DNA from: an uncultured Granulosicoccaceae bacterium
GTDB taxonomy: Bacteria > Pseudomonadota > Gammaproteobacteria > Granulosicoccales > Granulosicoccaceae
Direction of reading: 5' to 3'
DNA length: 32,065 nucleotides
Assembly: GCA_937957915.1 (NCBI GenBank)
Contig: CALGNZ010000185.1
Location: forward strand, 1 to 32,065
Shown in pieces: positions 1 to 21,648 of this stretch (its first letter is position 1; every line of letters starts with the position of its first letter). The translations under genes were made by a program, and so were the position numbers. The notes beneath the pieces were generated by a model. The model saw only the letters and a list, made by a program, of their open reading frames with translations. It did not search any database and was not told the origin of the DNA.

Positions 1-345
1 AGACCAAAGTCGTTATCAACACTGCCGTCAGCGTTGAGCCGCATCACAGCAAAATCGCGATCCGTATTCTGAACGTAGCCACCGATGACCAGTTTCCCAT
101 CGGCTTGCTCAACAATGGATTTAGCATAGTCATTGTTACTAACACCAAATTCATTGATGTAGACGCCACCAGTGCCAAAGCTGGTGTCGAGACTGCCATC
201 GGAAGTCCATTTGGCAATCGCCCACCCACGATTGCCATTCACAAATACGTTTCCAGCAGAGATGCTGCTGCCGTCGGCCAGTACGATAACTTCTTCGGCG
301 AATTCGTTTGCGTTTCCGCCGAGGAGATCCTGGTTACTTGTGCCT
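1..345 (-). repeat. Start of delta-60 repeats, cut by the window edge
   Basis: The last visible part of the giant protein reads SLDTSFGTGGV, ADGKLVIGGY, DFAVMRLNADGSVDNDFG. This is the signature of the delta-60 repeat family (about 55 residues per repeat, possibly propeller-forming). More repeats are expected beyond the left edge. Confidence 0.8.
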
Positions 346-3300
346 GGACCCACACCAAAGGTGGGCGCGTCGTTTTCTACATTGATGGTTATTGAAACCG
401 AGTCGGTTGCTGTGACCTGATCTGCTGTAAGTGCAGCGATTTCTTCGGCAGGCAGCGCACGGGAGTAGACCCGCACGTCATCGATCAGGCCATTGAGTGC
501 CCAGCCCCCTGCGGGGTTTTCTCCGATCCTTGCTATACCCGTTGGCGATCCGGCATCCGCTACGACCGATGCGGATGCGTTCGAAACGAGTACCCCGTTC
601 AGGTATAACTCGCCTGTAGTCGTCGATTCATTCCAACTGAAGGCGACATGGTTCCAGCCAGCACCGCTCAAGTCACTATCGAAATCAAACAGGGTCCATT
701 CGGTGCCGTTGTGTACATAGGCTTCAAGCCTTTGCGACGTTTCGTTGTATCTCAGCCCGGCTACGTAGCCGATTTCCACCACAGTTGCATAGCTTGTTTG
801 CAGTTCATCTATGTTGACCCACGCTGCCAGCGTAACATCTGCGGGATCGCCAAAGTCTGAGGCGATATCGACTGAATCTGCTGTGCCATCCAGGCTGAGT
901 ACATCGCCGCGTTCGGCGTCATTGATGATTGCCGCGTTTCCACTGAGGGTTCCGTTCTGTGAGGGGCCGGCCGATTCGTCAATGACCGTCGATCCACTGA
1001 CTGTCGCCGATTCAAACGTGTAGTGGCCCGCCAGGTCGGCGGTGAGTGCGGTTGTCATCGTTAGAGTGACATTGCCACTGAATTCGGCATTGGGCTGGAA
1101 AGTCATGCCGTGCAATGCCGCATTGATTGCCGATTCAGTTCCGTTTATCACGAACGAATCGTTTCCGTGAACACCTTCAACAAAGGTGATACCGTTTGTT
1201 TGTGATAAAAAAAGCACGCCGTCATTTACCGACAGCGAGACTTGCAACGGCAAGTCGCTTCCCGATAATCCGTCGGATACGGTGACGGCATTGCCACTAC
1301 TAAACGTAAGCACGTTGTCTTCGTCAACCGACTGGGCACCCGGAACCACGTGAATAGCGTCCGCGCCGTTGTCGATAGTGATCGTGAGAATTTCGTCGTA
1401 GGAGCCACTGTTGCTGTCGGTGACTTCAACAGTAATGTTATGTGAAGTGGCAGTTTCGTAGTCTAGAGATGATGCATCGGCGACGGTAACTTCACCAGTG
1501 CTGCTATTGATCGCAAAACGTCCGGCCGCGCTGTCCGGCAGGCTGTAGGTAAAGGTGTCATCCAGATCGGCGTCGACGCTGAAAACCGTGCCTACTGATG
1601 TTCCATCAATGCTGTTTTCATTGATATTAAAGGCGGGTGTTGAATCGACTTCGTAAGCCCGGATATTGTCCAGCACTAAATCAACGGAGGTTGTGACGCT
1701 GGAATTGTCGGAGAACTGCAGCGTGGTTGTTGTACTGTCGGCGACAAACGTGTAGCGATAACTGTCGAAACTGGCGGGATCCGAGCCGGTATCTGTGATT
1801 GTATCCGTCACCAGGTTCGCCGAACCAATAAGCAGCACCTCCATCGCCTGATGTTGGCCGAGGCCAAGTGCACTACCGAAGGCTGCCATGTCGAACGTGA
1901 CTGTATAGGTTTGCCCGATAGTGGTTGCAATCGTTGTACTGACCACACCGGTATTGGCCGAATCCAGGTGGCTAAATTGAAATGCGTAGTCTCCGTCGCT
2001 TGCCCCCTGGCCAGTTTGTCGCACAACATTGCCTGCCAGCGTCCAATCGCTGGTACCCACTTCGATAGATGAGTTGGCGACCAGATTGTTACCCGTTTGG
2101 GTGGCAATGTCTGTTGGATTGTCCGGCTGCGGTTGCACGTCGATGAATAGCGACTCGGTGGCCGTTTTTGCACCACCTGCGCCGATATTGCCTCGGTCAT
2201 CGACAGTGATTTGAACATTGCCAAGTCCAACGAAATCGATGGTGGGGGTGTAACTGAAATTGCTCAACACCGTGTTGATGTTCGCCACCGTACCTTCAAA
2301 TACAATTGTCGAACTACCGCTGCCACCGGACAGAACCGTTACACCGGTAGTGTCTAGTGCTGCGATACCGTTGCTGACTTCAATTGCCACCTCTACTAAC
2401 GAAGCCCCTGCATCGTCATCGTCAATTTGCACGCTCAGCCCACTGAGAGTGACGTCCTCGTTGGTAGTGCCGCGAACAAAATTACCGCTGTCCTGATTGA
2501 TGTGTACGCCAATGGAATCACCGTCGCCGGCTGCAAAAATAATGTCCAGCTGCCCGTCACCGTCGACGTCAGCCGCTTCTGCCCAGACCGGGTCATCGGT
2601 ACTGGTATCCAGAAGTTTGTGGGTGAACTCGGCGCTGCCGTTATTTTCATACAGGTGAATTTCATCAGAATTATTGCTGGTGACGATCAAATCACTGGAA
2701 CCGTCGCCATCGGTATCGGCGACATCAATGTGGTACACCAATGGTGAAACGCCACTGTCGACCAATGTTGATGTAAAGACTGGTGTAGTCGAGCCGTCGT
2801 TGGTTAGCAGGCCCACCGTGTTTGTAGTCCAGGTGATGTACCCGACATCTACATCACCATCGGAATCGAAGTCACCCACATCCAGGTCAGCGACGCTGCC
2901 CACGCTGCTGGCGATTGTGCTGCGGTTAAACCCCGCAGTGACATTGCCATTGTTGGTGAATAGCAGAATTTGCTTGTTCTGGAAATCGCCGACGACCAGA
3001 TCGAGGTCGAGATCGCCATCCATATCTGCGATAGCAACACCTTCGGTGTTACTGACAATATCCGCATAGGTTTTGGTGAACACACCGGTTGCATTCTGTT
3101 CAAAAACGGCGATCTGGGAGTCGCCAATGCTGCGATAGAACGTGGCGGCGATGTCCTGGCGTCCATCGCCGTCAATATCGCCAACGGCCAGATCATCGGA
3201 CCCATCGAACTCTCCACCGACGCTTCCTTCATAAGTGGCTGTATTGAACGTGACGGCGCTGGTTCCGACAAAATTATTCAGCAACACATAAATGCTATCT

Positions 3301-6300
3301 GCAGCATCGGCTGGATCGTCATTGGCTGCGACTATATCTACATCGCCATCACCGTCCAGGTCGGTTGCCACAACGGCGCCGAAATCCTGTGCTGAGGCAA
3401 TCAACGTACCCGCTGAGAAAACACCACTGCTGTTATTCTCATGCCATAGAAGCTGACCGCTATTCGTCGTCGAAACCAGATCGACATCACCATCATTGTC
3501 CAGATCACCGGATGTGACACTGGTGGCGCCTGTGAGGCTTTCTATCGTTTCAGGGTTAGCGCCTGGCAGGCTGCTAAAGTACGGAGCATTGTTCACGGCT
3601 TGAACAGTAATGGCCACGCTGTCGCTGGATGTTGCCAGGTCGGCCGAAAGGCTTGCGATTTCGTCCACAGAAAGTGCGCGGCTGTAGATCCGAACCTCGT
3701 CGATCAGGCCATCAAAATCAAAACCTGCGCCGCCATCGCCTGATCGTCCGATGTATGTATCGGGGCTATTGTCGTATTCGATTGCTGCTGGTGCCACAGT
3801 GGTTTCAATGGCTGATCCATCAATAAAGACAGTCATCTGTTGGCTAGCTGTGTCGATCGTGACCGCAACGTGTCTCCAACCAGTGCCGAGCAGGCTCTCA
3901 GTCGAACGACTGACGTAGTCCGTGCCACCGGATTCATAGTAGCCGAGCAGTGTTCCATCAGGTTCCAGGTACAACGCCGGGGCGGTACCCATCGAAATGA
4001 CAACCGCGCCGCTAACGTCGGCACTGGTCGCGTTGATCCATGCTGCCAAAGTGAGGTTGGCCGGCTCACCCAGGAGACCAGTGATTAGCATGAATTGACC
4101 GCTGCCATTAAGACTCAACACATCGCCACGTTCTGAGTCGCTTACGATTGGCGGGCTACCAGTGAGTGTTCCGTTCTGCGAGAGTCCGACCGACTCATCG
4201 GTAACCGTTGAGCCACTAACCGTTGCCGATTCAAAGGTATAGTGACCTTCCAAATCAGCCTGTAGCGACGTTGTCATGTTCAGCGTGACCGCGCCAGTGA
4301 AATCCGTATCCGGCGTGTAGGTCAACCCTTCAAAAGCAGCATTGATGTCAGATTCAGTGCCCTGAATCGTCATGAACGTACTGCCATTAGAGCCGCCGAG
4401 AATGGAGAGCCCTGTGGTTTGTGACAGGGTTAGCACGCCATCGTTTACGGAGATAAAGACCTGCAGCGGTGAAGTGGTTGAATCAACCGTGTCTGTGACA
4501 GTCACAGCGTTGCCATTGCCACTGCTGAACGTAAGGGTGGAGTTTTCAGTAACGTTTTGTGCAGCGGGTACTAACTGACCGGGTTCAATCCCGTTATCCA
4601 CCCGGATACTCATCGTCTCTGAATAGCTATTACCTGTAACATCGGTCACGAATACATCAATGTCGTGCGAAGTCGCGATCTCGTAGTCGAGCGATCTGGT
4701 TGCAACGACAGTGATTTCACCGGTACTGCTGTCGATTTCAAAATTGTTCGATGAATCAGTCAGGCTATAGGTAAAACCTGATAGCACGTTGCTGGCATTC
4801 CATTCCATAACGTACTGCAAACTCTGCGAGGCGTCGATATCAGCCCATGTTCCATCGCCATTGATAATTTGCAGACTGTCTTCAATTCCACCGGCATCAT
4901 CGGGTTGGCCACTTGCAAAGTTGCTGTACGCCGTTGCAGCCCCGCCTGTGTAGAAAGAATCAGCTTCAACACCGTTGTTAACCCAGCGCCAGGTCCCTTC
5001 TGTGGTCGCATCAAGCGCTCCAATGCGCGCGGAGCCAAGGCCTGCCTCCCCAACAAGATTGAGTACCAATTCATTTTCGTAGTCTGAGCGGATATTAACC
5101 AGTTGACCACCAACACCGTTGATCAACACGTTTGCGGCATCCGCTTGCGATGTTGCATAATCCCGCGCTGCAAGCGGTGAACTGACTTTATAAAATTTCG
5201 CCGTAGCCGCGTCGTAGGTCAGCGATGGATCGTTATTCAGTATCGTAGTAACTGCCTGCGGGACCTCGATAACCTGAACATCAGTGATTATCGGGCCCCA
5301 GGTGCTCGGTGTGTCCAGTGAAGCGAACGATAGAGCAGTGGTAGTTGAATCAGCAGTAAACGTGAATGATCGAGCAGACCAAAGCATATTTGTCGTCGAC
5401 CAGGCAGCGGGCTGTGTCATTTGATAATCTATTGCCACACCACCCGCACTGGCACGCAGATCTTTGACGGCGTCGCCGTTGGTCCAGTTACCAGAGGAGG
5501 CAAATACAACCTGATATTGCCGCCCGATTTCGGTGGTAAGCGTTTGTTCGATAGCGCCGGCCACAGCGCCATCACCATGCAATTCAACTGCTTTTCCGCC
5601 TAGAGGCCCTGGCTCCCAACCGGTAAGTATGTTTACGTTTTCAACAGTGACCGTCCAGTCACCAAAACTATTAGGCGCGTAGACAACGGATGTAGCATCT
5701 GGAGTATTGCTGAACGAACCATCAAGCACGATATCCTGTGGGGTATCCGGATCGGTTGGCACAACAAAGCCAACACTGGCACCGGCGAGCGCATTTTCAC
5801 TGATGTGCAAATCATCGACTGGCGTGCTGATTTGAAATCCTGTGGATAATCCATCGTTGCCGGAGACGACATGGAAATTCGACAGAGAGTAATCGTCCTG
5901 GTTGTCGTATGTTGAATCAGAAGTTCGAACGTAAAAGGACGAGTCGATATACCAATCTGTAGCTGCCGTAATAGTATCCGTTGCGAATGTCACACCGTCA
6001 TATTGATACTCCAGAGTTGTTCCATTTACATACAGCCCGAATACTCCGCCATTCGTCATCCCAATGTTGTAGGTTCCTGTCGACACACCATTGTGTCTGA
6101 CAGAAACAGTATCAACACCACTGATATAGTCATGGAAGAGAGCAAACTCGGGGTCAGCAAGGTCAACACTGGATTCTGCAGATCCCAGGCCTATCGTCCA
6201 GGCATTATTGGTTTCATTGTCAACTGTGAATCGGATCGTATAATCATCTGAATAACCCAGCGTTGATACGCTGGTCGAATTAACCTGTGATCCCCACCCG

Positions 6301-9300
6301 TCAGGTGCACCTGCGTCAACGAAGGTAAGCGTGTTCCCGCTTACTGTTACCCCACCAACCTGGTTGGTCCAGTCAGTGATAGCGGTTTGTCCTGCAGATT
6401 CCACGCTCAGGTTGTTTCCACCAACCACATCGACGACTTCGTTACTTCCGTTAAAACCATCCATCTGCCAGTTAGCAATCAGGCCAACTGGCAGGTTGCC
6501 GCTTTGAAATTTATGTTGATGATTGAGTGCAACGTCAGCCGGGCTGCGAACCCCGCTCCAGAGACGAACATCGTAGAGTGTACCCCGAAAGGTATCGTTC
6601 GATTGGAAGCCACCGCCATAGGAGTCTTGTTCATTGCCGATCACAAGTTGACCTGTGGACGCGTCACCAGCAACGGTTTCACCAACGGCCAGCCCGGTAC
6701 CTGATTCGATGAAATCACCATCGACATAGATAGCCCAGTCACCGTTGGTGTTGTCCCAGGTCAACGCAAGTGAGTGTGGCTCGCCATCAAGCAAGACATC
6801 ATCGTAATCAATCGCAAAGGGATTGATCTGATTGACTGACCCATTGATCACCAGTGTCAGATACCCGTTACCTGCCAATTGGTCAATACGAACCAGGATG
6901 TCATTCCCATCCGGATCTGTGGCGGCATAGGACAACAGTGTTTGCCTGCCAGCATCGGCACCGCTGAAATTGAATTCAAGAGTAAATGCAGATAAGCCAC
7001 CGATCACATCGCCAATGTCACCTGCGTTTCCGCTGCTGGCTACAGACAGGTAGGTGTTGTTGCCGCCGTCGGCATTCAACTCGATACCGGCAGACAGATC
7101 CGTCGGAGCGCTATTGCTCTCTAACAGATTATTCAGGTTAACCGTAAAATTCTGGTCATTGGTGTTACCGTTAACGTCTGTCGTGTGAATCGTCAGTGTG
7201 TGCGACGGCTGGCTGCCAAAATTCAACAATGAACCATTGCGTACACGAATTTCCCCCGTGCTGCTATCAACTTCAAATGCATTGGCAACCGTTTGTGATG
7301 ATATCGCGTAACTCAGTGGCTGACTCGCATCAAGCACGGCGTCAGCATCCCATTCAACGATGTAATTATCAGGGGAGCCTGTGATCGGCGAGTCGTACCA
7401 CTTCCCATCTGTTGTGTCGAGCCGGATTGCATCTTCGTTTGCGCCACTGTCATCCGGCTGAGTTGATGAAAACCAGTTCGAGTAGGTGCCTGAACGATAA
7501 CCGTCAACCGCACCCTGCCAAAACTCGTCGGCGTTAACTCCATTTTCAATCCATCGCCACTCACCCTCTTCCGTAGCATCACTGCCTCCGATGAACACGC
7601 TTCCTCCAGAAGTTTCACTATTCGCGAGGCTGCGAAGGAACTCATTCTCGTTAGCCGTTCTGATCACCGACAGTTGGCCATTCACCGAGTTTAGCGGGGT
7701 TGCCTCGGCATTGGTTTTAGCAACGCTCCAGTCGTATGAACCGGTCACTACCTTATAAAACTTGTCGGTTTCTCCACTGTAGCGTAAATCAGCATCCGCC
7801 ATCAGCAACGCTGAAACCTGTGCTTCCCGCTGTGCATCGATAGCCGTGACCATTCCTACGATGCTGCCATCACGCGCGTGCTCATCAACCATGAGCGCAA
7901 GCATCGCCTCACTGCCAGTAAAACCAGCGTCATTGGTGTGCTTAACAGTCAGGTTATTTCCGCTGACGGAATCAGTGACAATACCATCAACAGACAATGC
8001 ATTAAAATTCCACTGTGCCAGCATGTCTGTTTCATTGTGAGGCAGTTCACTGCGATAGCTTGCTGCCATTTCTACTTCTGTGCGCACATCACTAAACAGG
8101 CGACTATTGATTAATGACCCGGTGAAGACCTGTGTATTGTCGAAGCTCCCCCCAATGTTATCTTGCATCTGTCCAAACAAGAGAACACCGTTACCCCCAA
8201 TGGTTTGCCCATTGGCCAGCAAGGTACCGCTACTGATGGCTGTACTGTCGACCGCAACACCGTCGGCATAGATCACCCAGTTTCCATTGGTGCCATCCCA
8301 GGTGAATCCGAGTGAATGACGGGCCCCGTCCTGGAGCGTACTGTAGTCAAAGACGGTTGAGTTATAGATTGCCCCTGAAACGATCAGTGTGGCAGATCCA
8401 TCGTTACGGATCTCAAACACAATTTCGTTGCCATTAGACGGCACCGCATAAGACAACAGCACCAGATCCTTTGAGACACTATTGCTGGCAAATTGAGTTT
8501 CAAAACTCAGCGAGGTTCGCCCGCCAAACAAAGCATCGCTATCGTCGGCGATCAGATAGCTATCGTTGCCACCATCGTTGTTGATACCAAGCCCACCGTT
8601 ACCAGTGGCAGTAACCTTGATCTCCTCAGGTGAAACGCCATCACTATCACCATCGGTGGCTGTAGCGTAGCCAGACAGTTCACTACTATTACCGCTGGCA
8701 TCAGTTGTTATCAGTGTTACAAACTCACCCGTCGCTAACGAGACTCCTGCAAGCGTTCCGGAAAGCGAGCTATCGCCACTTGCAACGCCCGTCGCCGTGC
8801 CCAGATAGCGTTGCGCTTCTACTTGGCCGCCATCACGATCACTACTGGCGTAGAAATCTATGGTATAGGTTCCGGCAGAAAGCGTTGTCGTATCCAGCAC
8901 GTAAGCGAATGTGCCATCGTCTGCAATAGAAGCGGTACTTAGAACGGCCCAGTTTTGTCTATTGTTACCGCCAGTGTCAGTATCGCCCGCATCGTTGACA
9001 TCTGCACCGTCTTCGATGGAGACACTAAGGTCGACACCTAATCCCGAATTAGCATATATACTGTTGCCGCGAATCTGGTTGCCAGCGGAAGGGTCTCTTA
9101 TCGATACACCGGCATCACGAGCAACAGCGCCTTGACCATTAAACGCTATAACGTTTCCTTCACCAACACCCGTGCCACCGATCAAGTTATTGCTCGACCC
9201 TGTTAATACGATGACGCCGTTCTCTCTGTTTCCCCAATCCAGTGTGCCCGAAGCATCTGTTCCGATAATATTTCCCTGTATTACGTTACCGTTTGCACTT

Positions 9301-12300
9301 GAATTAAGCTCGATACCTGAGTACTGACTGCCCACAATGATGTTGTCGAGGATTTGATTGTTATCTGCGCCACCGCTGCCGGCAAGAGCGATACCGGAAC
9401 CGCTGTTACCAAGATTTTGGGTTCCATCAGCAGACACACCGATGTAGTTATTTTGAAAGGTGTTGTTATCGTTCCCATCACTAAATAAACGAATTGCGTA
9501 GCTTGTCGCACCGGCGATAACGTTTCCGTGTGCCGCCGTAGACCCGCCAATCGTATTACCATTAGCGGTTTCCAGAATATAGATACCGTAAGAGCCCGAT
9601 CCCAACAGCGCGTTGCCTGTGATATCAGTTCCGAAGTAGTTACCTGAAACGTTTGAATTAGAGCTTGTACCACGAAGAACTACACCAAAGTCAGTACCGG
9701 CAAAAACGTTGCGATCTGCTTGTGTTGAACCACCTACTGTTGTGTTATCCGCATAGCTCCGGACGCCATAGTCGTTCTCTTCGCTCGCCCCTGCATCAGA
9801 CCCATCTGAGTTGAATTGCCCGATCCAGTTGCCTGCAACGGTAACGCCATCGGCGTCGTCAGCTATCTCGACCGCGGCGTCGACAAGATCACGAAGTACC
9901 AGTCCTCGCACTTCACTGTTGTCCGCAGCAGCGCCGAATTTAAACGCTTTGTAGGAACCGTCACCGTCCACCACAATCGGCAGGTAACTCGCTTCAGCCC
10001 AATCAGTTTGAGTTGTACCGTCTATAGTGACCTGATCGGTTATCACCGGCAGATCGGAAACCAGGGAAATGATCTGAGATCCAACGCCCGGAATATTAAA
10101 CTCGATGGTGTCGGCCTGACCGTTGTTGGCGTTTGCGTCAATAATTGCCTGACGCAGCGAACCGGTGCCGTTGTCATTGGTGTTTATAACAGTAAGAGTT
10201 TGTGGACCTGATCCGGCGAGGTTGTAAAGCTCAGTTACATCGCTGCTGGCAAGTGCGCGCGTATACACCCGAACATCGTCTAACTTGCCATCAAAATCTC
10301 CGACTACCGCGTCCCGACCACCTATAGTTAGTGATGCTGCAGGAGAAACAGTCCCGACGGCTGAACCGCTAAAACCCGTTAATGCCGCATCAACATAAAT
10401 GCGTAAATCATCGCCTGTTCGAGTTGCAGTAATATGGTGCCAAGCACCATCAGCGATTAGTGCACCCGGCTGAGTTCGGACATGCGTCCCGGACGCACCT
10501 TCCAGAAAGAAACTGAAATCACCATTTGCGTCTGCAAAAAGCGAAAAACCAGTGCTGCCATCATGAGAGCCGATGATACGTGTGGAATTCGACTGAGGAT
10601 CATCGGCGTTGTACCAGAAAGCAACACTGAAATCGTTATTGAAGTCTAACGATACGTCGTCGGGCACGGCAACAACCGCATTGTTGTTGAACGAATCTCC
10701 GGTAAAGTCGAGTGAAAACGCCCCCACCGCGCTATCGCCACTCCAACTCGGTGCGTTGGTCCAGCTACCATCATTGCCGTTGACGGTTGAATCAGTTGCT
10801 ACACTACCGCCGTTTTCCTCAAACTCTAAGTGAGCGACAAGCGACGAACTGATATCCAGTGTACCGTGCCAGCTTCCCTGCTGATCATTCGAAAATGCGA
10901 CATCAGCTTCAACGTTTCCTACCTGATACTCCAACGCCCAGTTACCACCAAGGTCTGCGTGTCCGGTCAGATCATCACTGGCGGCAATGTCTGAGTCGGT
11001 AATTGCAGCTATCTGCCTGACCAGTGCTTGCCCCTGAACACTGCCTGCTACTTCACAACCGTAAACCAGAATATCCGCGTCAACGCTGAGGCCTGGTGTC
11101 CAGCTCGCCAATTCCTGTTCGTATGAGGATAGCGTTGCCGCTGTTAAAGTGTCGGTACCAAGTTGTATCTCGCCGGAGGAACCGTGCCCGACAATGTGCA
11201 CGGCACTGAATTTGCCGCCACCGGCAAGAAAATCCGAGACGACTGCAATGCCACTTTCCGTTTCGGCTATCGTCAGAATGTCATAAGCCACAGTGTCATT
11301 GCCCGACGTAATATCGTTAACAAGAGACTCGTAGCCTTCTATCTGTTCATCGAAAATCAGCAATTGCCGCAACTCATCGGCTGTTGCGCCAGTTACGTGG
11401 TCTGACATGACATCACTTTGGATGTAGTCAGCCAGGTGCTTAGTAGATTCAGGCAGAATCCCATCGTTGACATTCTGGTGCAAACCGGCAATCTCACCTG
11501 CCGATAAAACTACATTGTAAAGCCGGCCATCATCCAGAAATGCTGTTGAAATATTTCCTGACTCAATTCCGAAATCCTTGGGTTTACGCAACGGATAGGA
11601 ACCATCAGTCGTGGTACCCGCCGAGTCAGTGCTTTGCGGTGCGTTTTCTGATTCTGTACTTGCCAACGCCAGATATTGCACACCGTCAACATAAATCTGT
11701 GTATCTGCAATATCCCGGGTGATAGCAATATGTGCCCAGCTGCCTTCGGTTAGATGTTTTTTACCCGTTTGATAGAAATCGATAGCAGCGGAGCTGTGTT
11801 TCGCCGTTACTTCAATCTGCTCGCCCTGTCTGGCCACCACGATTTCGCTTTCGCTGTAGCCGCCTGTCACTATATTCGCCAGCACTTCGTTGCCAGCTAA
11901 TGACTCAAGGTACAGCCAAAACGAGATCGTGCCAGGCGCATCGCCTGGAACACGGATTGTTTTAGCTGACAAGTCCAGATGGCTATAGGGTGCGTTACTG
12001 GCGATACCTTCAACAGGCTTGGTTGCAGTAGTTTCGTTTAGCGAAGATCGATCGGCGTGGAGATCTTTACTCTCTGAAAGTTGCAGCTTAGCACTTGAAA
12101 CACTGGCCTTGACGTCATCAGGCGGCGCATTCCAGTCATTCTCGAGTGGTGTGGTGATTGCTGGCACCGCATTCCGTTGCTGATTCACATCGACTGCAAC
12201 CCACGAATCATCAACAGTTTCTTCTGTGTTAGCTGGCGGTGGATCTGCGATGTGTTGTGAAAGCGCTCCGTGTTTTATCGGGCGTGCGGATTCCAGCAAA

Positions 12301-12455
12301 ACGCCACTGTTGACGTCAATAGTCGTAGCGTCAGAATCATCGGCGATGTTACCACTAGCCAGAAAATCGCCGGAGTACAACAGGCGCTGCTCGAGCAATT
12401 CAAGCACTGACTGAGACTTTGCTTCAGCAACGCCTTTGGGTTTGCGTTTTCTCAT
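1..12455 (-). CDS. Giant modular surface/exported protein (LEPR-XLL, LamG, DUF4347, beta-helix, lectin-like, cadherin, VCBS, delta-60), C-terminus outside window
   Basis: One frame stays open from ATG at 12455 to the left edge, at least 4151 codons. It begins MRKRKPKG and has the LEPR-XLL-like motif LEQRLLYSGD near residues 19-28, which marks the N-terminus of many giant exported proteins. Approximate domain order by residue: LamG/concanavalin-like 150-325; DUF4347 360-520 with H424 in VGHG and C467 in YGC; LamG 537-750; right-handed beta-helix with NVIxG-type turns 751-1140; LamG 1280-1465; C-type-lectin-like 1556-1704; cadherin 1706-1776; LamG 1789-1990; an unassigned beta-sandwich; a choice-of-anchor C/DUF642-like domain 2243-2400; a second lectin-like domain 2404-2552; cadherin, Ig-like and LamG to 2947; seven DxDxDG VCBS repeats 2966-3329; Ig-like; a choice-of-anchor-like domain 3456-3600; cadherin, Ig-like and LamG to 4006; delta-60 repeats from about 4039. 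Composition is Asp/Gly/Ser/Thr-rich with few Cys, as in calcium-binding adhesins. An adhesive role is inferred. No secretion genes are visible. Confidence 0.93.
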   Translation of the reverse strand, partial: MRKRKPKGVAEAKSQSVLELLEQRLLYSGDFLASGNIADDSDATTIDVNSGVLLESARPIKHGALSQHIADPPPANTEETVDDSWVAVDVNQQRNAVPAITTPLENDWNAPPDDVKASVSSAKLQLSESKDLHADRSSLNETTATKPVEGIASNAPYSHLDLSAKTIRVPGDAPGTISFWLYLESLAGNEVLANIVTGGYSESEIVVARQGEQIEVTAKHSSAAIDFYQTGKKHLTEGSWAHIAITRDIADTQIYVDGVQYLALASTESENAPQSTDSAGTTTDGSYPLRKPKDFGIESGNISTAFLDDGRLYNVVLSAGEIAGLHQNVNDGILPESTKHLADYIQSDVMSDHVTGATADELRQLLIFDEQIEGYESLVNDITSGNDTVAYDILTIAETESGIAVVSDFLAGGGKFSAVHIVGHGSSGEIQLGTDTLTAATLSSYEQELASWTPGLSVDADILVYGCEVAGSVQGQALVRQIAAITDSDIAASDDLTGHADLGGNWALEYQVGNVEADVAFSNDQQGSWHGTLDISSSLVAHLEFEENGGSVATDSTVNGNDGSWTNAPSWSGDSAVGAFSLDFTGDSFNNNAVVAVPDDVSLDFNNDFSVAFWYNADDPQSNSTRIIGSHDGSTGFSLFADANGDFSFFLEGASGTHVRTQPGALIADGAWHHITATRTGDDLRIYVDAALTGFSGSAVGTVSPAASLTIGGRDAVVGDFDGKLDDVRVYTRALASSDVTELYNLAGSGPQTLTVINTNDNGTGSLRQAIIDANANNGQADTIEFNIPGVGSQIISLVSDLPVITDQVTIDGTTQTDWAEASYLPIVVDGDGSYKAFKFGAAADNSEVRGLVLRDLVDAAVEIADDADGVTVAGNWIGQFNSDGSDAGASEENDYGVRSYADNTTVGGSTQADRNVFAGTDFGVVLRGTSSNSNVSGNYFGTDITGNALLGSGSYGIYILETANGNTIGGSTAAHGNVIAGATSYAIRLFSDGNDNNTFQNNYIGVSADGTQNLGNSGSGIALAGSGGADNNQILDNIIVGSQYSGIELNSSANGNVIQGNIIGTDASGTLDWGNRENGVIVLTGSSNNLIGGTGVGEGNVIAFNGQGAVARDAGVSIRDPSAGNQIRGNSIYANSGLGVDLSVSIEDGADVNDAGDTDTGGNNRQNWAVLSTASIADDGTFAYVLDTTTLSAGTYTIDFYASSDRDGGQVEAQRYLGTATGVASGDSSLSGTLAGVSLATGEFVTLITTDASGNSSELSGYATATDGDSDGVSPEEIKVTATGNGGLGINNDGGNDSYLIADDSDALFGGRTSLSFETQFASNSVSKDLVLLSYAVPSNGNEIVFEIRNDGSATLIVSGAIYNSTVFDYSTLQDGARHSLGFTWDGTNGNWVIYADGVAVDSTAISSGTLLANGQTIGGNGVLLFGQMQDNIGGSFDNTQVFTGSLINSRLFSDVRTEVEMAASYRSELPHNETDMLAQWNFNALSVDGIVTDSVSGNNLTVKHTNDAGFTGSEAMLALMVDEHARDGSIVGMVTAIDAQREAQVSALLMADADLRYSGETDKFYKVVTGSYDWSVAKTNAEATPLNSVNGQLSVIRTANENEFLRSLANSETSGGSVFIGGSDATEEGEWRWIENGVNADEFWQGAVDGYRSGTYSNWFSSTQPDDSGANEDAIRLDTTDGKWYDSPITGSPDNYIVEWDADAVLDASQPLSYAISSQTVANAFEVDSSTGEIRVRNGSLLNFGSQPSHTLTIHTTDVNGNTNDQNFTVNLNNLLESNSAPTDLSAGIELNADGGNNTYLSVASSGNAGDIGDVIGGLSAFTLEFNFSGADAGRQTLLSYAATDPDGNDILVRIDQLAGNGYLTLVINGSVNQINPFAIDYDDVLLDGEPHSLALTWDNTNGDWAIYVDGDFIESGTGLAVGETVAGDASTGQLVIGNEQDSYGGGFQSNDTFRGTLYDVRLWSGVRSPADVALNHQHKFQSGNLPVGLIANWQMDGFNGSNEVVDVVGGNNLSVESAGQTAITDWTNQVGGVTVSGNTLTFVDAGAPDGWGSQVNSTSVSTLGYSDDYTIRFTVDNETNNAWTIGLGSAESSVDLADPEFALFHDYISGVDTVSVRHNGVSTGTYNIGMTNGGVFGLYVNGTTLEYQYDGVTFATDTITAATDWYIDSSFYVRTSDSTYDNQDDYSLSNFHVVSGNDGLSTGFQISTPVDDLHISENALAGASVGFVVPTDPDTPQDIVLDGSFSNTPDATSVVYAPNSFGDWTVTVENVNILTGWEPGPLGGKAVELHGDGAVAGAIEQTLTTEIGRQYQVVFASSGNWTNGDAVKDLRASAGGVAIDYQMTQPAAWSTTNMLWSARSFTFTADSTTTALSFASLDTPSTWGPIITDVQVIEVPQAVTTILNNDPSLTYDAATAKFYKVSSPLAARDYATSQADAANVLINGVGGQLVNIRSDYENELVLNLVGEAGLGSARIGALDATTEGTWRWVNNGVEADSFYTGGAATAYSNFASGQPDDAGGIEDSLQIINGDGTWADIDASQSLQYVMEWNASNVLSGFTYSLTDSSNNFEIDSSTGEITVVATRSLDYEIATSHDIDVFVTDVTGNSYSETMSIRVDNGIEPGQLVPAAQNVTENSTLTFSSGNGNAVTVTDTVDSTTSPLQVFISVNDGVLTLSQTTGLSILGGSNGSTFMTIQGTESDINAAFEGLTYTPDTDFTGAVTLNMTTSLQADLEGHYTFESATVSGSTVTDESVGLSQNGTLTGSPPIVSDSERGDVLSLNGSGQFMLITGLLGEPANLTLAAWINATSADVSGAVVISMGTAPALYLEPDGTLLGYYESGGTDYVSRSTESLLGTGWRHVAVTIDTASQQMTVFIDGSAIETTVAPAAIEYDNSPDTYIGRSGDGGAGFDFDGLIDEVRIYSRALSVDEIASLSADLATSSDSVAITVQAVNNAPYFSSLPGANPETIESLTGATSVTSGDLDNDGDVDLVSTTNSGQLLWHENNSSGVFSAGTLIASAQDFGAVVATDLDGDGDVDIVAANDDPADAADSIYVLLNNFVGTSAVTFNTATYEGSVGGEFDGSDDLAVGDIDGDGRQDIAATFYRSIGDSQIAVFEQNATGVFTKTYADIVSNTEGVAIADMDGDLDLDLVVGDFQNKQILLFTNNGNVTAGFNRSTIASSVGSVADLDVGDFDSDGDVDVGYITWTTNTVGLLTNDGSTTPVFTSTLVDSGVSPLVYHIDVADTDGDGSSDLIVTSNNSDEIHLYENNGSAEFTHKLLDTSTDDPVWAEAADVDGDGQLDIIFAAGDGDSIGVHINQDSGNFVRGTTNEDVTLSGLSVQIDDDDAGASLVEVAIEVSNGIAALDTTGVTVLSGGSGSSTIVFEGTVANINTVLSNFSYTPTIDFVGLGNVQITVDDRGNIGAGGAKTATESLFIDVQPQPDNPTDIATQTGNNLVANSSIEVGTSDWTLAGNVVRQTGQGASDGDYAFQFSHLDSANTGVVSTTIATTIGQTYTVTFDMAAFGSALGLGQHQAMEVLLIGSANLVTDTITDTGSDPASFDSYRYTFVADSTTTTLQFSDNSSVTTSVDLVLDNIRAYEVDSTPAFNINENSIDGTSVGTVFSVDADLDDTFTYSLPDSAAGRFAINSSTGEVTVADASSLDYETATSHNITVEVTDSNSGSYDEILTITIDNGADAIHVVPGAQSVDEDNVLTFSSGNAVTVSDGLSGSDLPLQVSLSVNDGVLFLSQTNGITFVEGVHGNDSFVINGTESAINAALHGMTFQPNAEFSGNVTLTMTTALTADLAGHYTFESATVSGSTVIDESAGPSQNGTLSGNAAIINDAERGDVLSLDGTADSVDIASDFGDPADVTLAAWVNIDELQTSYATVVEIGYVAGLRYNETSQRLEAYVHNGTEWTLFDFDSDLSGAGWNHVAFSWNESTTTGELYLNGVLVSNASASVVADAGSPTGIARIGENPAGGWALNGLIDDVRVYSRALPAEEIAALTADQVTATDSVSITINVENDAPTFGVGPGTSNQDLLGGNANEFAEEVIVLADGSSISAGNVFVNGNRGWAIAKWTSDGSLDTSFGTGGVYINEFGVSNNDYAKSIVEQADGKLVIGGYVQNTDRDFAVMRLNADGSVDNDFG
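434..1521 (-). repeat. Cadherin-Ig-LamG cassette, distal copy (A)
   Basis: This stretch encodes SSTGEVTVADASSLDYE, then VPGAQSVDEDNVLTFSSGN and GHYTFESATVSGSTVIDES, and ends LIDDVRVYSRALPAEEIAAL. It is a diverged copy of 3652-4747. Stretches such as GHYTFESATVSGSTV and SQNGTL are identical at protein level. Confidence 0.85.
2535..3515 (-). repeat. Seven VCBS/FG-GAP calcium-binding repeats (likely seven-bladed beta-propeller)
   Basis: Seven DxDxDG-type loops are read in order: GDLDNDGDVD, TDLDGDGDVD, GDIDGDGRQD, ADMDGDLDLD, GDFDSDGDVD, ADTDGDGSSD and ADVDGDGQLD. They are spaced roughly 47-61 residues apart. Seven such repeats is the number expected for an integrin-alpha-like propeller in which each loop binds calcium. 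Confidence 0.82.
3652..4747 (-). repeat. Cadherin-Ig-LamG cassette, proximal copy (B)
   Basis: This stretch encodes SSTGEITVVATRSLDYE, then VPAAQNVTENSTLTFSSGN and GHYTFESATVSGSTVTDES, and ends LIDEVRIYSRALSVDEIASL. It lies about 3.2 kb from copy A in the same orientation and frame. The VCBS propeller and a choice-of-anchor-like domain lie between the two copies. Confidence 0.85.
4800..5245 (-). other. C-type-lectin-like domain 2 of the giant protein
   Basis: This is a second copy of the lectin-like module: KFYKVSSPLAARDYATSQ, then ARIGALDATTEGTWRWVNNG, SNFASGQPDDAGGIEDSL, GTWADIDA and YVMEWNA. It aligns end to end with the copy at 7345-7790 and keeps the QPD motif. A cadherin domain follows both copies, so the lectin-cadherin pair was probably duplicated as a unit. 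Confidence 0.78.
7345..7790 (-). other. C-type-lectin-like domain 1 of the giant protein
   Basis: The segment runs from KFYKVVTGSYDWSVAKTNAE to DNYIVEWDA. It has the CTLD core: FIGGSD...EGEWRWIENG, then SNWFSSTQPDDSGANED and KWYD. The QPD tripeptide is the galactose-type version of the calcium/sugar motif in classical C-type lectins. The domain lacks the conserved disulfide cysteines, as bacterial versions often do. Confidence 0.78.
9040..10205 (-). other. Right-handed parallel beta-helix segment of the giant protein
   Basis: The segment opens with NDNGTGSLRQAIIDAN, which resembles the CSLREAI motif that introduces bacterial beta-helices. About ten irregular turns rich in N-V-I/N-x-I-x-G follow (for example GNVIAG, GNIIGTD, NNLIGGTG, NQIRGNSI). 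It ends with the usual closing pattern LGVDLSV...DVNDAGDTDTG. A fibrous or carbohydrate-binding role is typical of the fold but is not shown here. Confidence 0.75.
10895..11370 (-). other. DUF4347 domain inside the giant protein
   Basis: The stretch from LLIFDEQIEGYESL (about residue 364) to GNWALEYQVGNVEA (about residue 519) matches the DUF4347 family pattern, including AVHIVGHGSSGEIQLG, ILVYGCEVA and IAASDDLTGHADLGGNW. The His of GHG is residue 424 and the Cys of YGC is residue 467. That His-Gly then Cys order and a spacing of about 43 residues resemble caspase-like (clan CD/CHAT) peptidases. Catalytic activity is an inference. Confidence 0.82.
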
Positions 12456-13015: not shown

Positions 13016-16368
<3,353 letters not shown>

Positions 16369-16574
16369 AGAGTCTGATTCCTTTATTAGCACACCGGGTG
16401 CAGCGCCATCATTTGAATTCGGCACCTTTTATCAGACACCCGGCACTGCAGTTTGTTTACTTTATTTCAACGACACGCCTGGCAACACTCAGCCACAGCG
16501 ATTGCAACCGCACCTACTTAAGCAGGGTATCTGCTAAAGCAAGGCATTGAAGCAGCCTGATGACTGTTCTGCCA

Positions 16575-18377
16575 TCACTGGAAGGACAAGTGATCGGCGT
16601 CGAGATCCATCAGATTATCTGCACCAGACGTCATGGTTACCGCCAGTGTTCGCGTTCGCGGCAGCAAACGCTCATAGTAAAAACGTGCGGTAAAAAGTTT
16701 AGCGCTGAGGAATTGTGTATCACCTGCACCCTGATCAAGCTGAAGGTTAGCAGTAGCGGCCGCTCTGGCCCAAAAGTAGGCAAGCACCACGTAACCGGAG
16801 TACATCAGGTAATCAACCGACGCCGCACCGGCTTCCTCTTTACTCTGTATTGCCGACATTCCAATTCGTGTTGTCAGCTCACCCCATTCTTTGTTTGCTT
16901 TGGCTAACGGTGTCACGAATCGCGCCATCTCCGGCACGTCGGCCTGCGATTGACAAAAACGATGGATCTCACGGGTAAAAACCTGCAGCAGCTTACCCTG
17001 TGACCCGAGGACTTTTCTGCCGAGCAAATCGAGAGCCTGTATGCCGGTTGTACCTTCATAGATCATCGAGATGCGCGCATCTCGCACATTTTGCTCCATG
17101 CCCCACTCACGAATGTAACCGTGACCACCGAAAACCTGCAAACCAAGATTGGCGGCTTCGAAACCGGTTTCAGTCATGAACGCCTTGGCGATAGGTGTCA
17201 GCAACGCCAGTTCCTGTTCAGCGGCACTTTTTGATTCGTCGTCGGCAGCGCGGTGACTGACGTCAACCAGCCGCGCGCAGTGGTAAAGAAACATCCGATT
17301 GCCTTCTGCAAGCGCTTTTTGCGTCATTAACATGCGCCTGACATCCGGATGCACGATGATCGGATCAGCTGGCTTGTCAGGTGCAGCAGGCCCTTCGAGC
17401 GCGCGCATCTGCAAGCGATCTTTGGCATAGGCAAGTGACCCCTGGAAGGCCAGCTCGGCGTGAGCAACGCCCTGCATAGCGGTGCCAATACGTGCCGCAT
17501 TCATAAATGTGAACATGCAATTCAACCCGCGATTAGGCGGACCGATCAAAAAACCCTGAGCACCGTCAAAGTTCAGAACACAGGTGGCGTTACCATGAAT
17601 CCCCATTTTGTGTTCAATCGATCCGCAGTTAACCGCATTGCGCTCGGTGACTTCGCCATCCGCATTAACCGAGTGTCTGGGCACGATGAAAAGCGAGATA
17701 CCCCGCGTGCCAGCAGGTGCATCGGGCAGTCGCGCCAATACAATGTGTACGATGTTGTCTGCCAGATCGTGTTCACCCGCAGAGATGAAGATCTTGGTGC
17801 CGGAAATACTGTAACTGCCATCATCACGAGGCTCAGCCCGCGTTTTCAACAAACCGAGGTCAGTGCCACAGTGGCTTTCAGTCAGGCACATGGTGCCAGT
17901 CCATTCACCGGACACCAGCTTCGACAAGTACTGTTGTTTTTGCTCGTCTGTGCCGTGCGCCTCGATGGTTTTCATAGCGCCGTGGCTGAGCCCGGGATAC
18001 ATAGACCACGCCCAGTTAGCGGTACCATTCATTTCGCTGAGTACCGTGCCAAGAGACTCTGGCAATCCCTGTCCACCGAGCTCGGGCGACTGCGTCATTG
18101 ATGGCCAGCCCGCCTCGACATACTGTTGATAGGCATCGCGAAATCCGGCAGGTGTTGCTACCTCACCTTCACTCCAGCTGCAACCCTCGGCATCGCCGGT
18201 GCTGTTGAGCGGCGACAATACATTAGCTGCAAACTTGCCACCTTCTTCCAATATGGCATCTACTACATCCGGTGTGGCATCTTCAGCTGACGGCAACGCA
18301 GCATAGTGGCCATCGAAATCGAGAACATCGTGCAATACAAAACGCATGTCTTTCAGCGGAGCGTTGTAGGTAGTCAT
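16575..18377 (-). CDS. Acyl-CoA dehydrogenase, ~600-residue long-chain type (PA0506/FadE1-like)
   Basis: This FAD enzyme catalyses the first beta-oxidation step, acyl-CoA to trans-2-enoyl-CoA. The protein has 600 residues, longer than the ~380-residue short/medium-chain class. It starts with the short N-terminal extension MTTYNAPLKDMRFVL typical of this subgroup and has a C-terminal extra helical domain after about residue 480. Visible landmarks are MCLTESHCGTDLG (flavin/substrate region, about 163-175), FGGHGYIREWGMEQ (416-429), and the catalytic base E441 in MIYEGTTGIQ. It lies upstream of fadBA on the same strand with a gap of about 200 bases, so the two may have separate promoters but belong to the same pathway. 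An AraC-type regulator lies just upstream. Confidence 0.93.
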   Translation of the reverse strand: MTTYNAPLKDMRFVLHDVLDFDGHYAALPSAEDATPDVVDAILEEGGKFAANVLSPLNSTGDAEGCSWSEGEVATPAGFRDAYQQYVEAGWPSMTQSPELGGQGLPESLGTVLSEMNGTANWAWSMYPGLSHGAMKTIEAHGTDEQKQQYLSKLVSGEWTGTMCLTESHCGTDLGLLKTRAEPRDDGSYSISGTKIFISAGEHDLADNIVHIVLARLPDAPAGTRGISLFIVPRHSVNADGEVTERNAVNCGSIEHKMGIHGNATCVLNFDGAQGFLIGPPNRGLNCMFTFMNAARIGTAMQGVAHAELAFQGSLAYAKDRLQMRALEGPAAPDKPADPIIVHPDVRRMLMTQKALAEGNRMFLYHCARLVDVSHRAADDESKSAAEQELALLTPIAKAFMTETGFEAANLGLQVFGGHGYIREWGMEQNVRDARISMIYEGTTGIQALDLLGRKVLGSQGKLLQVFTREIHRFCQSQADVPEMARFVTPLAKANKEWGELTTRIGMSAIQSKEEAGAASVDYLMYSGYVVLAYFWARAAATANLQLDQGAGDTQFLSAKLFTARFYYERLLPRTRTLAVTMTSGADNLMDLDADHLSFQ

Positions 18378-18606: not shown

Positions 18607-19671
18607 TCAGGCAGGGTATTGGTCAAGCGCACGCCGATACGCCGCAGGCGTTGTGCCGGACCAGCGTTTAAACGCACGGAAAAAGGCGCTGGCATCATCA
18701 AACCCCAGTAAGCGCGCAATTTCATTGAGCGACAGATCCGAACTACCCAGATATCGCAACGCCGCCGTGTATCGACACTCATCTTTCAGCGACTGGAACG
18801 ATGTGCCCTCATCGCCGAGTTGCCGCCGCAGTGTGCTGACAGACAAATTCAACGTTGCGGCAATGCTGGTGGCATTCGGCATTGCGCTGGAAAAATCGTC
18901 ACCGAACAGGGCCAGCACACGATCGCGCAAGGTATGTTGCCGGTGATAAGGCACAATCAGTCGATACGGCGCCGAGCGCAGGAAAATGTTTAACGACGCT
19001 TCGCTCTGAACGTTGGCGATATTCAGAAGCCCGGCTGGAAATTCGAGTGCAGACTGCGGGCTGTCAAAAACCAGCGGGCAATTAAACATGCGTTGCCAGC
19101 TTTCGGAATTTGCCGGTGCAGGAAAATTGAAAGTAATACGACTCAGGGCCAGCTCAGTACCGGCAAACCAGGAAAACAGGTTGTACCAGACAAACAGTGA
19201 CATGCGAACTCGCAGTGGACCATCTGCAGTCAGGATATCGTCCAGCGTGCGGTCATCACTGGCATCGATCAACCCAAAGCCTACCTGCACAGTACCGAGC
19301 TTATCTACTGTTACAGATGGCTTTAGCGTAGCCCCCTTACAGATATCCAGAAATTCGCCAACCCGGGTGAGGATGCCCCCAATCGATTCGCAATGAATAA
19401 CGCAGAGACACATCATTCGAAACGTGCCGTTGGGCACGCGACCACCGCTTGCCATACCCAGCGTTTCATCTTCCAGCAACAGTATGGCGCGCTTATACAA
19501 ACGCCCGAACAGTGAAGCGGGAACCGACTGAGCACTTGCCAGCTCATGCACGCTAACGCCGTCCACTGCAGCAAATGCCGCCGAATCGTGCCCCTGCTCC
19601 TCCACTGCACGCAGCAATGCACGTGCGTATGAAGCGGGGAGCGTTATTTCAGATGAATCGATTGGACACAT
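18607..19671 (-). CDS. AraC-family transcriptional regulator with arabinose-binding-like N-terminal domain
   Basis: The protein has 354 residues. Its C-terminal ~100 residues form two helix-turn-helix units. The first is seen in ATSIAATLNLSVSTLRRQL and the second in LSLNEIARLLGFDDASAFFR followed by AFKRWSGTTPAAYR, the classic AraC signature. The N-terminal ~200 residues resemble the Arabinose_bd (PF12625) ligand domain found in OruR/ArgR-type regulators. It sits directly upstream of and in line with the acyl-CoA dehydrogenase gene (230-base gap), so control of that gene by an acyl or other small ligand is plausible, though not shown. No clear Shine-Dalgarno precedes the ATG at 19671. Confidence 0.9.
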   Translation of the reverse strand: MCPIDSSEITLPASYARALLRAVEEQGHDSAAFAAVDGVSVHELASAQSVPASLFGRLYKRAILLLEDETLGMASGGRVPNGTFRMMCLCVIHCESIGGILTRVGEFLDICKGATLKPSVTVDKLGTVQVGFGLIDASDDRTLDDILTADGPLRVRMSLFVWYNLFSWFAGTELALSRITFNFPAPANSESWQRMFNCPLVFDSPQSALEFPAGLLNIANVQSEASLNIFLRSAPYRLIVPYHRQHTLRDRVLALFGDDFSSAMPNATSIAATLNLSVSTLRRQLGDEGTSFQSLKDECRYTAALRYLGSSDLSLNEIARLLGFDDASAFFRAFKRWSGTTPAAYRRALDQYPA

Positions 19672-19733: not shown

Positions 19734-19763
19734 GCTAGTCAAAGAGCTAGAGCTAGTCAAAGA
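19734..19763. repeat. Short 18-bp-period duplication across the NTAQ1-like stop codon
   Basis: GCTAGTCAAAGA occurs at 19734-19745 and again at 19752-19763. The second copy contains the stop codon and last codons (FFD-stop) of the NTAQ1-like gene. It looks like a small slippage duplication just after the gene end. Confidence 0.6.
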
Positions 19764-20280
19764 AAATGACAACTTCGTCGAGGCTTTTCAATTCGCCGTG
19801 TTTGTGTGAACGCATGTTAAGCATATCTGCAAAACTAAGTTCTTTACTAAATTCTTTACTAATTATCGGTGGCCATACGGGTGGCTCTGCAAGCCAGCTG
19901 CCGTCAGCACTTTTCATATGACTGCGATCTGAGGCAAACGCATCACGATAGTACGCGCTATCCATAACACGAAAAACCGGTTGCACAGGCATGGGCTGCC
20001 TGAATGTCTTACTGAAATAATCACCACTCGCAACGGGCATTCCCAGGATTGTATCGAAATCCCACACCTGCCACTGATTACCTGTGCCTCTTGCTAACAA
20101 GAATACATGATAGTCCCACCACACCGGTTCATCGACTGCGGCGGCGCTTCTCTGGCACCACAATGGACAGATCTGACGATCACTGCTGACCCACACTACC
20201 TTCTTTTCCGTCTCAGGCAACGCCGGATCAGCGCACAGGTGCCAGACATTTTCTTCGCAATAGCAAGCCGCGTAGTTCAT
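19753..20280 (-). CDS. Protein N-terminal glutamine amidohydrolase (NTAQ1 family), bacterial homologue
   Basis: In eukaryotes NTAQ1 deamidates N-terminal Gln to Glu, creating a secondary N-degron. From the ATG at 20280 the protein has 175 residues (human NTAQ1 has 205). The motifs are unmistakable: CYCEENVW with catalytic C8, WWDYHVFLL with H58, WDFDT with D74 (equivalent to human Cys28, His81 and Asp97), then FASDRSHMKSADGSW and EPPVWPP. The frame extends upstream to a GTG at 20421 with an ATG at 20340. The 20280 start is preferred because it puts the catalytic Cys close to the N-terminus, but it lacks a clear Shine-Dalgarno. The gene is divergent from the DUF3095 gene. No other N-degron gene (ClpS, leucyltransferases) is in the window. 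Confidence 0.88.
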   Translation of the reverse strand: MNYAACYCEENVWHLCADPALPETEKKVVWVSSDRQICPLWCQRSAAAVDEPVWWDYHVFLLARGTGNQWQVWDFDTILGMPVASGDYFSKTFRQPMPVQPVFRVMDSAYYRDAFASDRSHMKSADGSWLAEPPVWPPIISKEFSKELSFADMLNMRSHKHGELKSLDEVVIFFD

Positions 20281-20463
20281 TGACAGTTTAAAACACTCAA
20301 GGCCGATTTCAGATTCATAAACACTACTATATCGCAGCATGCTGAATACTGCGGCCGCCTGAACAGCCAAACCGCACTCCAGTTGCAAAACGCACTGCCT
20401 GAATCCGCCAGACCCTTGCACACCGTATCGTGATATTGTAGCAGCACCACCGGTCTCAACAAT

Positions 20464-21648
20464 ATGGCTTTGAACTCGACAATATCATTCAGCTCACTTA
20501 AGCCTTTCACGAGTTTCACCGGCAACGCTTTTGATGAAGACTTCTATACAGACATCCCGCATGACTGGCTCATTGTTATTGCAGATATAGAAGACAGCAC
20601 AAGAGCCGTAGAAGACGGAAAATACGAGCAGGTAAACTATGTCGGTGCTGCGTGCATTACTGCTTTAAACAATGCAATGCCCGAGCTCGATTTTCCCAAA
20701 GTGTTTGGCGGCGACGGGGCGCACGCCGTGGTACCACCAGATAACTTACCAGTGGTGATCAAGGCGATGCAACAGATGACCCACTGGTCACAACGGCAGT
20801 TCGGCCTTCGGCTGATCACAGGTATTGTGCCAATGTACGATGTTGTCAGCTCAGGGGGACATCTGTCTGCTGGAAAGATGCGATCAAGCACTGGTGTTGA
20901 TATCGCAATGTTCAGAGGAAATGGACTGGATATAGCAGAGTCAATGGTAAAAAAAGACACTACTGACCGCTACCGTTTAACGTCGGCAACTTCAAACACA
21001 CCTGATCTGACTGATCTCTCCTGCCGCTGGTCACCGATTACGCCAACACGTGACCACATGCTTTGTATTATTGTCAGTGCTCACAGTGATACACCGGGTA
21101 GTGCGGACAACACGCTTTCCAGTGTGGTGCACTTAATCAACAACATCGTCACACTGGACAGCAGCGACACCATGCCTGCCAGCGCTGACAAACTGAAATT
21201 CAAACTCCGACTCACAGCGATGCGGAAAGAGATAGCATCAGTGCGAGGCTCACTTTGGAAGCGTGTGCTGTCCGTGCTGGGCATCCACATGTTTGCCAGA
21301 GCGCTTTTCGCTTTCAGTATGCGAGTCGGTAATTTCGATGCGGAGCAATATCGGTCAGAAATAGCAGGCAACAGCGACTACATCAAGGTCGCCGGCAGCG
21401 TTAAGATGGTTTTGGACTGTACGTCTTCACAGGCAGATGACATCGAAATATTGCTGGAACAACAATACCAATCACAGCAACTCGTCTACGGTGTGTACAG
21501 AGCAAAAAAGGCATTGATGACATGCATAACACCAGACATCAACAGTGGCAATCATATCCACTATATTGATGGCTCTGACGGTGGTCTCTGGCAGGCTGCG
21601 TCCGCGCTAAAGCAACGCCTGGCCGAGGTTGGTGGCAACAACCGGTGA
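20464..21648 (+). CDS. DUF3095 protein with class III nucleotidyl-cyclase-like core
   Basis: The protein has 394 residues. The N-terminal half matches DUF3095: DWLIVIADIEDSTRAVEDGKY, VNYVGAACITALNNA and FPKVFGGDGAHAVVPP. The pair of acidic sites, D41 in ADIEDST and D84 in GGDGA, lie 43 residues apart in the order and context of the metal-binding aspartates of class III adenylate/guanylate cyclases. The C-terminal half (about 210-390) is specific to this family and has no domain I recognise. There is no signal peptide or clear membrane segment, so it is probably cytoplasmic. The ATG at 20464 has no good Shine-Dalgarno. It shares a divergent ~180-base promoter region with the NTAQ1-like gene. 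The biochemical function of the family is not established. Confidence 0.8.
   Translation: MALNSTISFSSLKPFTSFTGNAFDEDFYTDIPHDWLIVIADIEDSTRAVEDGKYEQVNYVGAACITALNNAMPELDFPKVFGGDGAHAVVPPDNLPVVIKAMQQMTHWSQRQFGLRLITGIVPMYDVVSSGGHLSAGKMRSSTGVDIAMFRGNGLDIAESMVKKDTTDRYRLTSATSNTPDLTDLSCRWSPITPTRDHMLCIIVSAHSDTPGSADNTLSSVVHLINNIVTLDSSDTMPASADKLKFKLRLTAMRKEIASVRGSLWKRVLSVLGIHMFARALFAFSMRVGNFDAEQYRSEIAGNSDYIKVAGSVKMVLDCTSSQADDIEILLEQQYQSQQLVYGVYRAKKALMTCITPDINSGNHIHYIDGSDGGLWQAASALKQRLAEVGGNNR

Follow-up and report, generated by a model that had tools for sequence, protein, structure and literature searches.

Bacterial N-degron pathways are described with primary and secondary destabilising residues and no deamidation step in the accessible portions of two accounts (PMC4745127, PMC6274719), which assign the deamidation of N-terminal Gln to eukaryotes and describe a narrower range for bacteria. 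In the Bpt pathway of Vibrio vulnificus, Bpt is specific for Asp and Glu according to the work cited in the available part of PMC12493166. The human enzyme NTAQ1 (PDB 4W79, 3C9Q and 8JJF series) has the catalytic triad Cys28, His81 and Asp97; its residues Trp78, Asp79 and Tyr80 touch a substrate-mimicking N-terminus in the crystal, Tyr111 hydrogen-bonds the catalytic Asp, and protein-glutaminase is named its closest structural homologue (PMC4214742, accessible part). According to the available text of PMC7022378, NTAQ1, NTAN1 and Nta1 of yeast each arose by a separate recruitment.

Here we analyse a window of 32,065 nucleotides, the whole stretch of DNA under study, from an uncultured Granulosicoccaceae bacterium. 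Its NTAQ1-family protein resembles human NTAQ1 in predicted fold, triad, W-D-Y strand and approximate size, at 38% identity, and does not have the roughly 20 residues found ahead of the match in the human protein. The window protein would act before Bpt and ClpS, whereas the human enzyme acts before ATE1 and ubiquitin ligases. Bpt, Aat, ClpS and ClpA are common to this genome and to the bacterial Bpt pathway (Vibrio vulnificus, via the available part of PMC12493166), but the genome adds a predicted deamidase ahead of Bpt, a bacterial step that does not appear in the accessible portions of PMC4745127 and PMC6274719. A literature search by title and beginning of abstract, with most subscription papers outside its coverage, returned no paper placing a bacterial NTAQ1 in the N-degron pathway of bacteria. 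The enzyme is of an already known kind, and the bacterial Gln tier is plausibly new.

The NTAQ1-family gene and its product

The gene (PF09764) occupies 19753..20280 on the minus strand and encodes 175 amino acids plus a stop codon from an ATG. The surrounding open frame spans 19753-20421; the near relatives L030 (MTDHQYAACYC) and L031 (MQSYLYASCYC) have their start codons at roughly the same site, and the ATG at 20280 is therefore a reasonable, although not proven, start. On the other side of the gap at 20281..20463, which is perhaps a putative shared promoter region, lies a divergent gene for a DUF3095 protein (PF11294, 336.6 bits; 20464-21648, plus strand); this neighbour had no match at E 1e-10 around NTAQ1 in the 88 other loci, some of them short-flanked. 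The next gene on the same strand encodes an AraC-type regulator (PF12625 and HTH_18; 18607-19671, minus strand). It starts 81 bases past the NTAQ1 stop, so that co-transcription of the two is possible; the regulator was unmatched by blast in the other NTAQ1 loci. Further along the minus strand, we observed fatty-acid oxidation genes at 13016-18377 (FadB-like, acyl-CoA dehydrogenase and, by eye, thiolase-like) and a single open frame at 3-12455, of at least 4151 amino acids, which extends beyond the window end.

The protein is an NTAQ1-family member, with a match far beyond chance. It scores 158.4 bits against PF09764 (N-terminal glutamine amidase; cut-off 27, E 1.9e-46) over profile positions 1-182 of 184, and it is the single match to this profile in its own assembly; NCBIfam holds no model for it. 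Human NTAQ1 is matched by phmmer at E 3e-28, with 58 identities in 151 aligned residues (38.4%). The AlphaFold2 model, built from 48 aligned sequences, has a mean pLDDT of 94.4 and a pTM of 0.90, and a fold search with this model places human NTAQ1 entries at all ranks from 1 to 17 (best E 5.4e-16; best TM 0.89 when normalised by query length and 0.76-0.80 by target length). These results, taken with the complete triad and the strand that would bind an N-terminus, bear out the family assignment of the initial annotation. Its further statement, that the identity is strikingly high for a bacterial protein, does not hold: the median identity of the 89 bacterial members is 36.6% to human NTAQ1 and 35.3% among themselves, and the window value is therefore ordinary for the family.

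Eighty of these 89 members come from a scan of a genome collection, which yielded 159 relatives, the best 80 being kept. The scan used one pattern around the catalytic Cys, and members without that pattern were missed; as the pattern contains both the Cys and its CEENxW context, the invariance of these positions is not independent, while the other invariances are. The alignment excludes a weak second frame of L054. The window protein keeps the triad as Cys8, His58 and Asp74, along with the strand Trp55-Asp56-Tyr57. The codon of Cys8 (human Cys28) lies at 20257..20259 on the minus strand, like all the codons that follow, and the residue is Cys in 89/89 bacterial rows. The codons at 20107..20118 specify Trp55-Asp56-Tyr57-His58 (human Trp78-Asp79-Tyr80-His81), that is, the binding strand and the catalytic His; the Trp, Tyr and His are present in all 89 rows, and human position 79 is occupied by Asp in 81 rows and by Asn in 8. 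The catalytic Asp74 (human Asp97; 20059..20061) is likewise invariant (89/89), and Tyr88 (human Tyr111; 20017..20019) is Tyr in 76 rows and Trp in 13. Within the FASDRSHMK segment (19912..19938), R, H and M are found in every row, S in 86 and D in 85 of the 89. Based on the fold and on these residues, we consider it very probable that the gene product has the predicted N-terminal glutamine deamidase activity.

N-degron genes and the proposed fate of the deamidated terminus

In the mechanism we propose, the product would work inside the cell as an N-terminal glutamine amidohydrolase. Proteases would expose an N-terminal Gln on protein fragments, Cys8 would attack its side-chain amide with departure of ammonia, and the acyl-enzyme would be hydrolysed to leave Glu at the N-terminus, following the proposal for the human enzyme. 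Bpt would then attach Leu to the new Glu, and ClpS would bind this Leu and pass the protein to ClpAP for degradation. This would make Gln, in this bacterium, a destabilising residue of the tertiary class, a tier above Asp and Glu.

The initial annotation had tied this idea to bpt, aat and clpS, and would have counted a genome without Bpt or ClpS against it. All three are present in the genome, with clpA in addition, so that this objection does not arise; for each product the score exceeds the curated cut-off of one or more NCBIfam models. Bpt, which contains ATE_N as well as ATE_C, reaches 306.7 bits against NF002341 (cut-off 252), Aat 200.3 bits against TIGR00667 (143.55), ClpS 163 bits against NF000669 (149) and ClpA 1116.9 bits against TIGR02639 (993.15); clpA lies 52 bases downstream of clpS. 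The NCBIfam models matched by Bpt carry the title arginyltransferase, and by analogy with the characterised enzyme this Bpt is presumably specific for Asp and Glu. For the parallel Asn tier, NTAN1 (PF14736) matched in 0/62 genomes, but the controls gave no match either.

In the Gammaproteobacteria, 9 of 369 genomes hold NTAQ1, our own genome included. Eleven passed E 0.001, and G114 (two matches) and G073 were dropped, being under the Pfam cut-off with frames that do not hold the triad; both were counted among the non-holders. All nine holders have Bpt, Aat and ClpS. Bpt occurs in 223 of the 369 genomes, which corresponds to 9/9 holders against 214/360 non-holders (Fisher one-sided p 0.010, a test that ignores descent); a crude count by family, with 7 families, gives p ~0.026. 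The association in the class is thus modest. Three other genomes sampled from the same family have no NTAQ1 match and still have Bpt, Aat and ClpS. In the class of the holder G386, Bpt matches at E 0.001 in 27/146 genomes, strongly in 22, as against 4/4 of the tested holders whose titles name Melainabacteria or cyanobacteria; but in that class Bpt is mostly in the larger genomes, which makes lineage a confounder for the co-occurrence of NTAQ1 and Bpt.

We searched for the pathway genes in 50 of the 80 kept relatives, chosen for taxonomic spread; among them were 8 of the 25 Bacteroidota, and 4 of the 7 relatives titled as Melainabacteria or cyanobacteria. G361 (L002) and G373 (L061) are apparently one genome, the proteins of L094 and L095 are identical, and absences among the 50 could be gaps, since genome completeness is not given. 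ClpS is found in 48 of these holders, Aat in 40 and Bpt in 35; two have no ClpS match. Every non-Bacteroidota holder tested (42/42) has Bpt or Aat, with Bpt in all four of the Melainabacteria or cyanobacteria set and missing in 7 of the 42. The eight Bacteroidota holders, on the other hand, have a Pfam ClpS match and neither Bpt nor Aat (8/8), and ATE_N was found in 0/15 of the Bpt-less holders (these 8 Bacteroidota and the 7 others). In the Algoriphagus genome of L112, where NTAQ1 is present and Bpt and Aat are unmatched, the ClpS-like protein (L112:4336-4629) has 97 amino acids and falls below every NCBIfam ClpS cut-off shown. Because of the eight Bacteroidota, coupling to Bpt cannot be a general rule for NTAQ1 holders: in that phylum either the deamidase has another purpose or there is an undescribed reader or transferase.

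The pathway genes are also rarely found close to NTAQ1. Across 89 NTAQ1 loci, no conserved neighbour was found beyond close relatives; a gene on the same strand and within 300 bases is shared by several loci only within Polyangium, among L002/L061/L084 and between L032/L037. Among 116 neighbour clusters with at least three loci, the top 45 were inspected, and families that we named by eye as ABC transporter-like, kinase-like and reductase-like recur there at varied distances; a 28-locus cluster was set aside, 37 of its 46 members being frames that overlap NTAQ1. Six window neighbours compared by blast with the other loci yielded a single match, FadB-like at 28.6%, in L098. A blast of the 89 loci with Bpt, Aat, ClpS, ClpA and the Algoriphagus ClpS as queries gave matches in two. 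One is a weak ClpA-like match in L106 (25%), probably another AAA protein. The other, the one clear pathway gene near NTAQ1 in 89 loci, is aat in an uncultured proteobacterium (L080:6267-6881), about 3.1 kb upstream on the same strand; opposite-strand genes separate the two, so they do not form an operon. We accordingly rejected an operon or conserved neighbourhood, as close neighbours recur only among near relatives and aat is nearby in 1/89 loci.

These data bear on a second reading, in which N-terminal Gln is deamidated without a Bpt-ClpS step and for ends other than proteolysis, such as stopping its cyclisation to pyroglutamate or aiding peptide breakdown. The Bacteroidota holders, the seven further holders that lack Bpt, and the unconserved, non-pathway neighbours (aat in L080 excepted) speak for it, but the presence of Bpt or Aat in all tested holders outside the Bacteroidota, of ClpS in nearly all of the 50 and of Bpt in every holder of the class speak against, and we regard this reading as unlikely, though not negligibly so. 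Coupling of NTAQ1 to Bpt and ClpS in our organism is the prediction that we favour, with a confidence that stays well short of firm because the Bacteroidota are an exception and gene linkage is lacking.

Substrate of the family

A further reading would give the enzyme a substrate other than a protein N-terminus, be it a free small molecule, an internal Gln in the manner of protein-glutaminase, or a peptide bond. The wider fold class indeed includes protein-glutaminase and cysteine proteases (PMC4214742 and PMC10318531, accessible parts), and the protein-glutaminase of Chryseobacterium (PDB 2KSV, 3A54) is, as window NTAQ1 is predicted to be, a Cys-His-Asp glutamine deamidase, one that deamidates Gln in proteins. 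It is also the next fold match of the predicted window model after human NTAQ1, but far weaker by Foldseek (E 0.016 and TM 0.28, against 5.4e-16 for human NTAQ1). The target of protein-glutaminase is an internal Gln. By contrast, the family conserves the strand with which human NTAQ1 touches the substrate N-terminus, and such a conserved surface for a free N-terminus favours protein or peptide N-termini, as the probable substrates, over small molecules. We therefore hold a different substrate to be quite improbable.

Distribution, origin and significance

According to their record titles, the best 80 of the 159 relatives belong to Bacteroidota, Melainabacteria, Myxococcota, Desulfobacterota, Acidobacteriota, Planctomycetota, Gammaproteobacteria and others. 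A quick maximum-likelihood tree, with human NTAQ1 as the single eukaryotic row, puts the window protein in a group of four with two Granulosicoccaceae sequences and one Chromatiales sequence (SH-aLRT 96), and the human row among the bacterial rows without resolution. The family looks old within bacteria, because many phyla hold it and human-bacteria identity is about the same as identity between bacteria; the direction of descent is not fixed by a tree with one eukaryote. The idea that a bacterium has taken in a eukaryotic enzyme, to which the wording of the initial annotation lends itself, is not supported: the family is spread over many bacterial phyla, and the one human sequence in the tree falls among them without a resolved position.

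Recent transfer from a eukaryote, or a contaminant contig, might be suggested by the sparse occurrence of NTAQ1 in the class and by its absence from 3/3 other genomes sampled from the family, but we consider it highly unlikely in view of the bacterial spread, the bacterial nearest rows in this one-eukaryote tree, an identity to human that is not above that among bacteria, adjoining window genes that match bacterial families, and a contamination given as 0.55% for the assembly (89% complete).

We found no relatives on viral contigs, in a search limited by the pattern, and none on plasmids or phages in our searches, and mobile carriage was rejected on these grounds; a role in defence was likewise set aside, PADLOC having given no match. 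Separately, PF09764 is weakly matched (22-26 bits) in L010, L011 and L012, close to the C-terminal end of proteins from an unrelated family, which we take by eye to resemble AbiEii-type nucleotidyltransferases. Such matches are a pitfall for automatic annotation.

Finally, we put forward a broader reading, tentatively and with more doubt than belief: the Gln-deamidation tier may be an old and widespread bacterial device, ancestral to the eukaryotic NTAQ1 step. In most holders it would then feed Bpt, or an Aat of broad range, followed by ClpS-ClpAP, and the Bacteroidota, which have NTAQ1 and a divergent ClpS and neither Bpt nor Aat, would rely on a transferase not yet described or on direct reading of N-terminal Glu by their ClpS. 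The Bacteroidota case itself suggests that a reader or transferase is yet to be found, or that the enzyme does something else. If the Bpt-coupled tier is real, Gln would be destabilising in some bacteria, one more tier than is usually described for them, and this would bear on the origin of the eukaryotic N-degron hierarchy.
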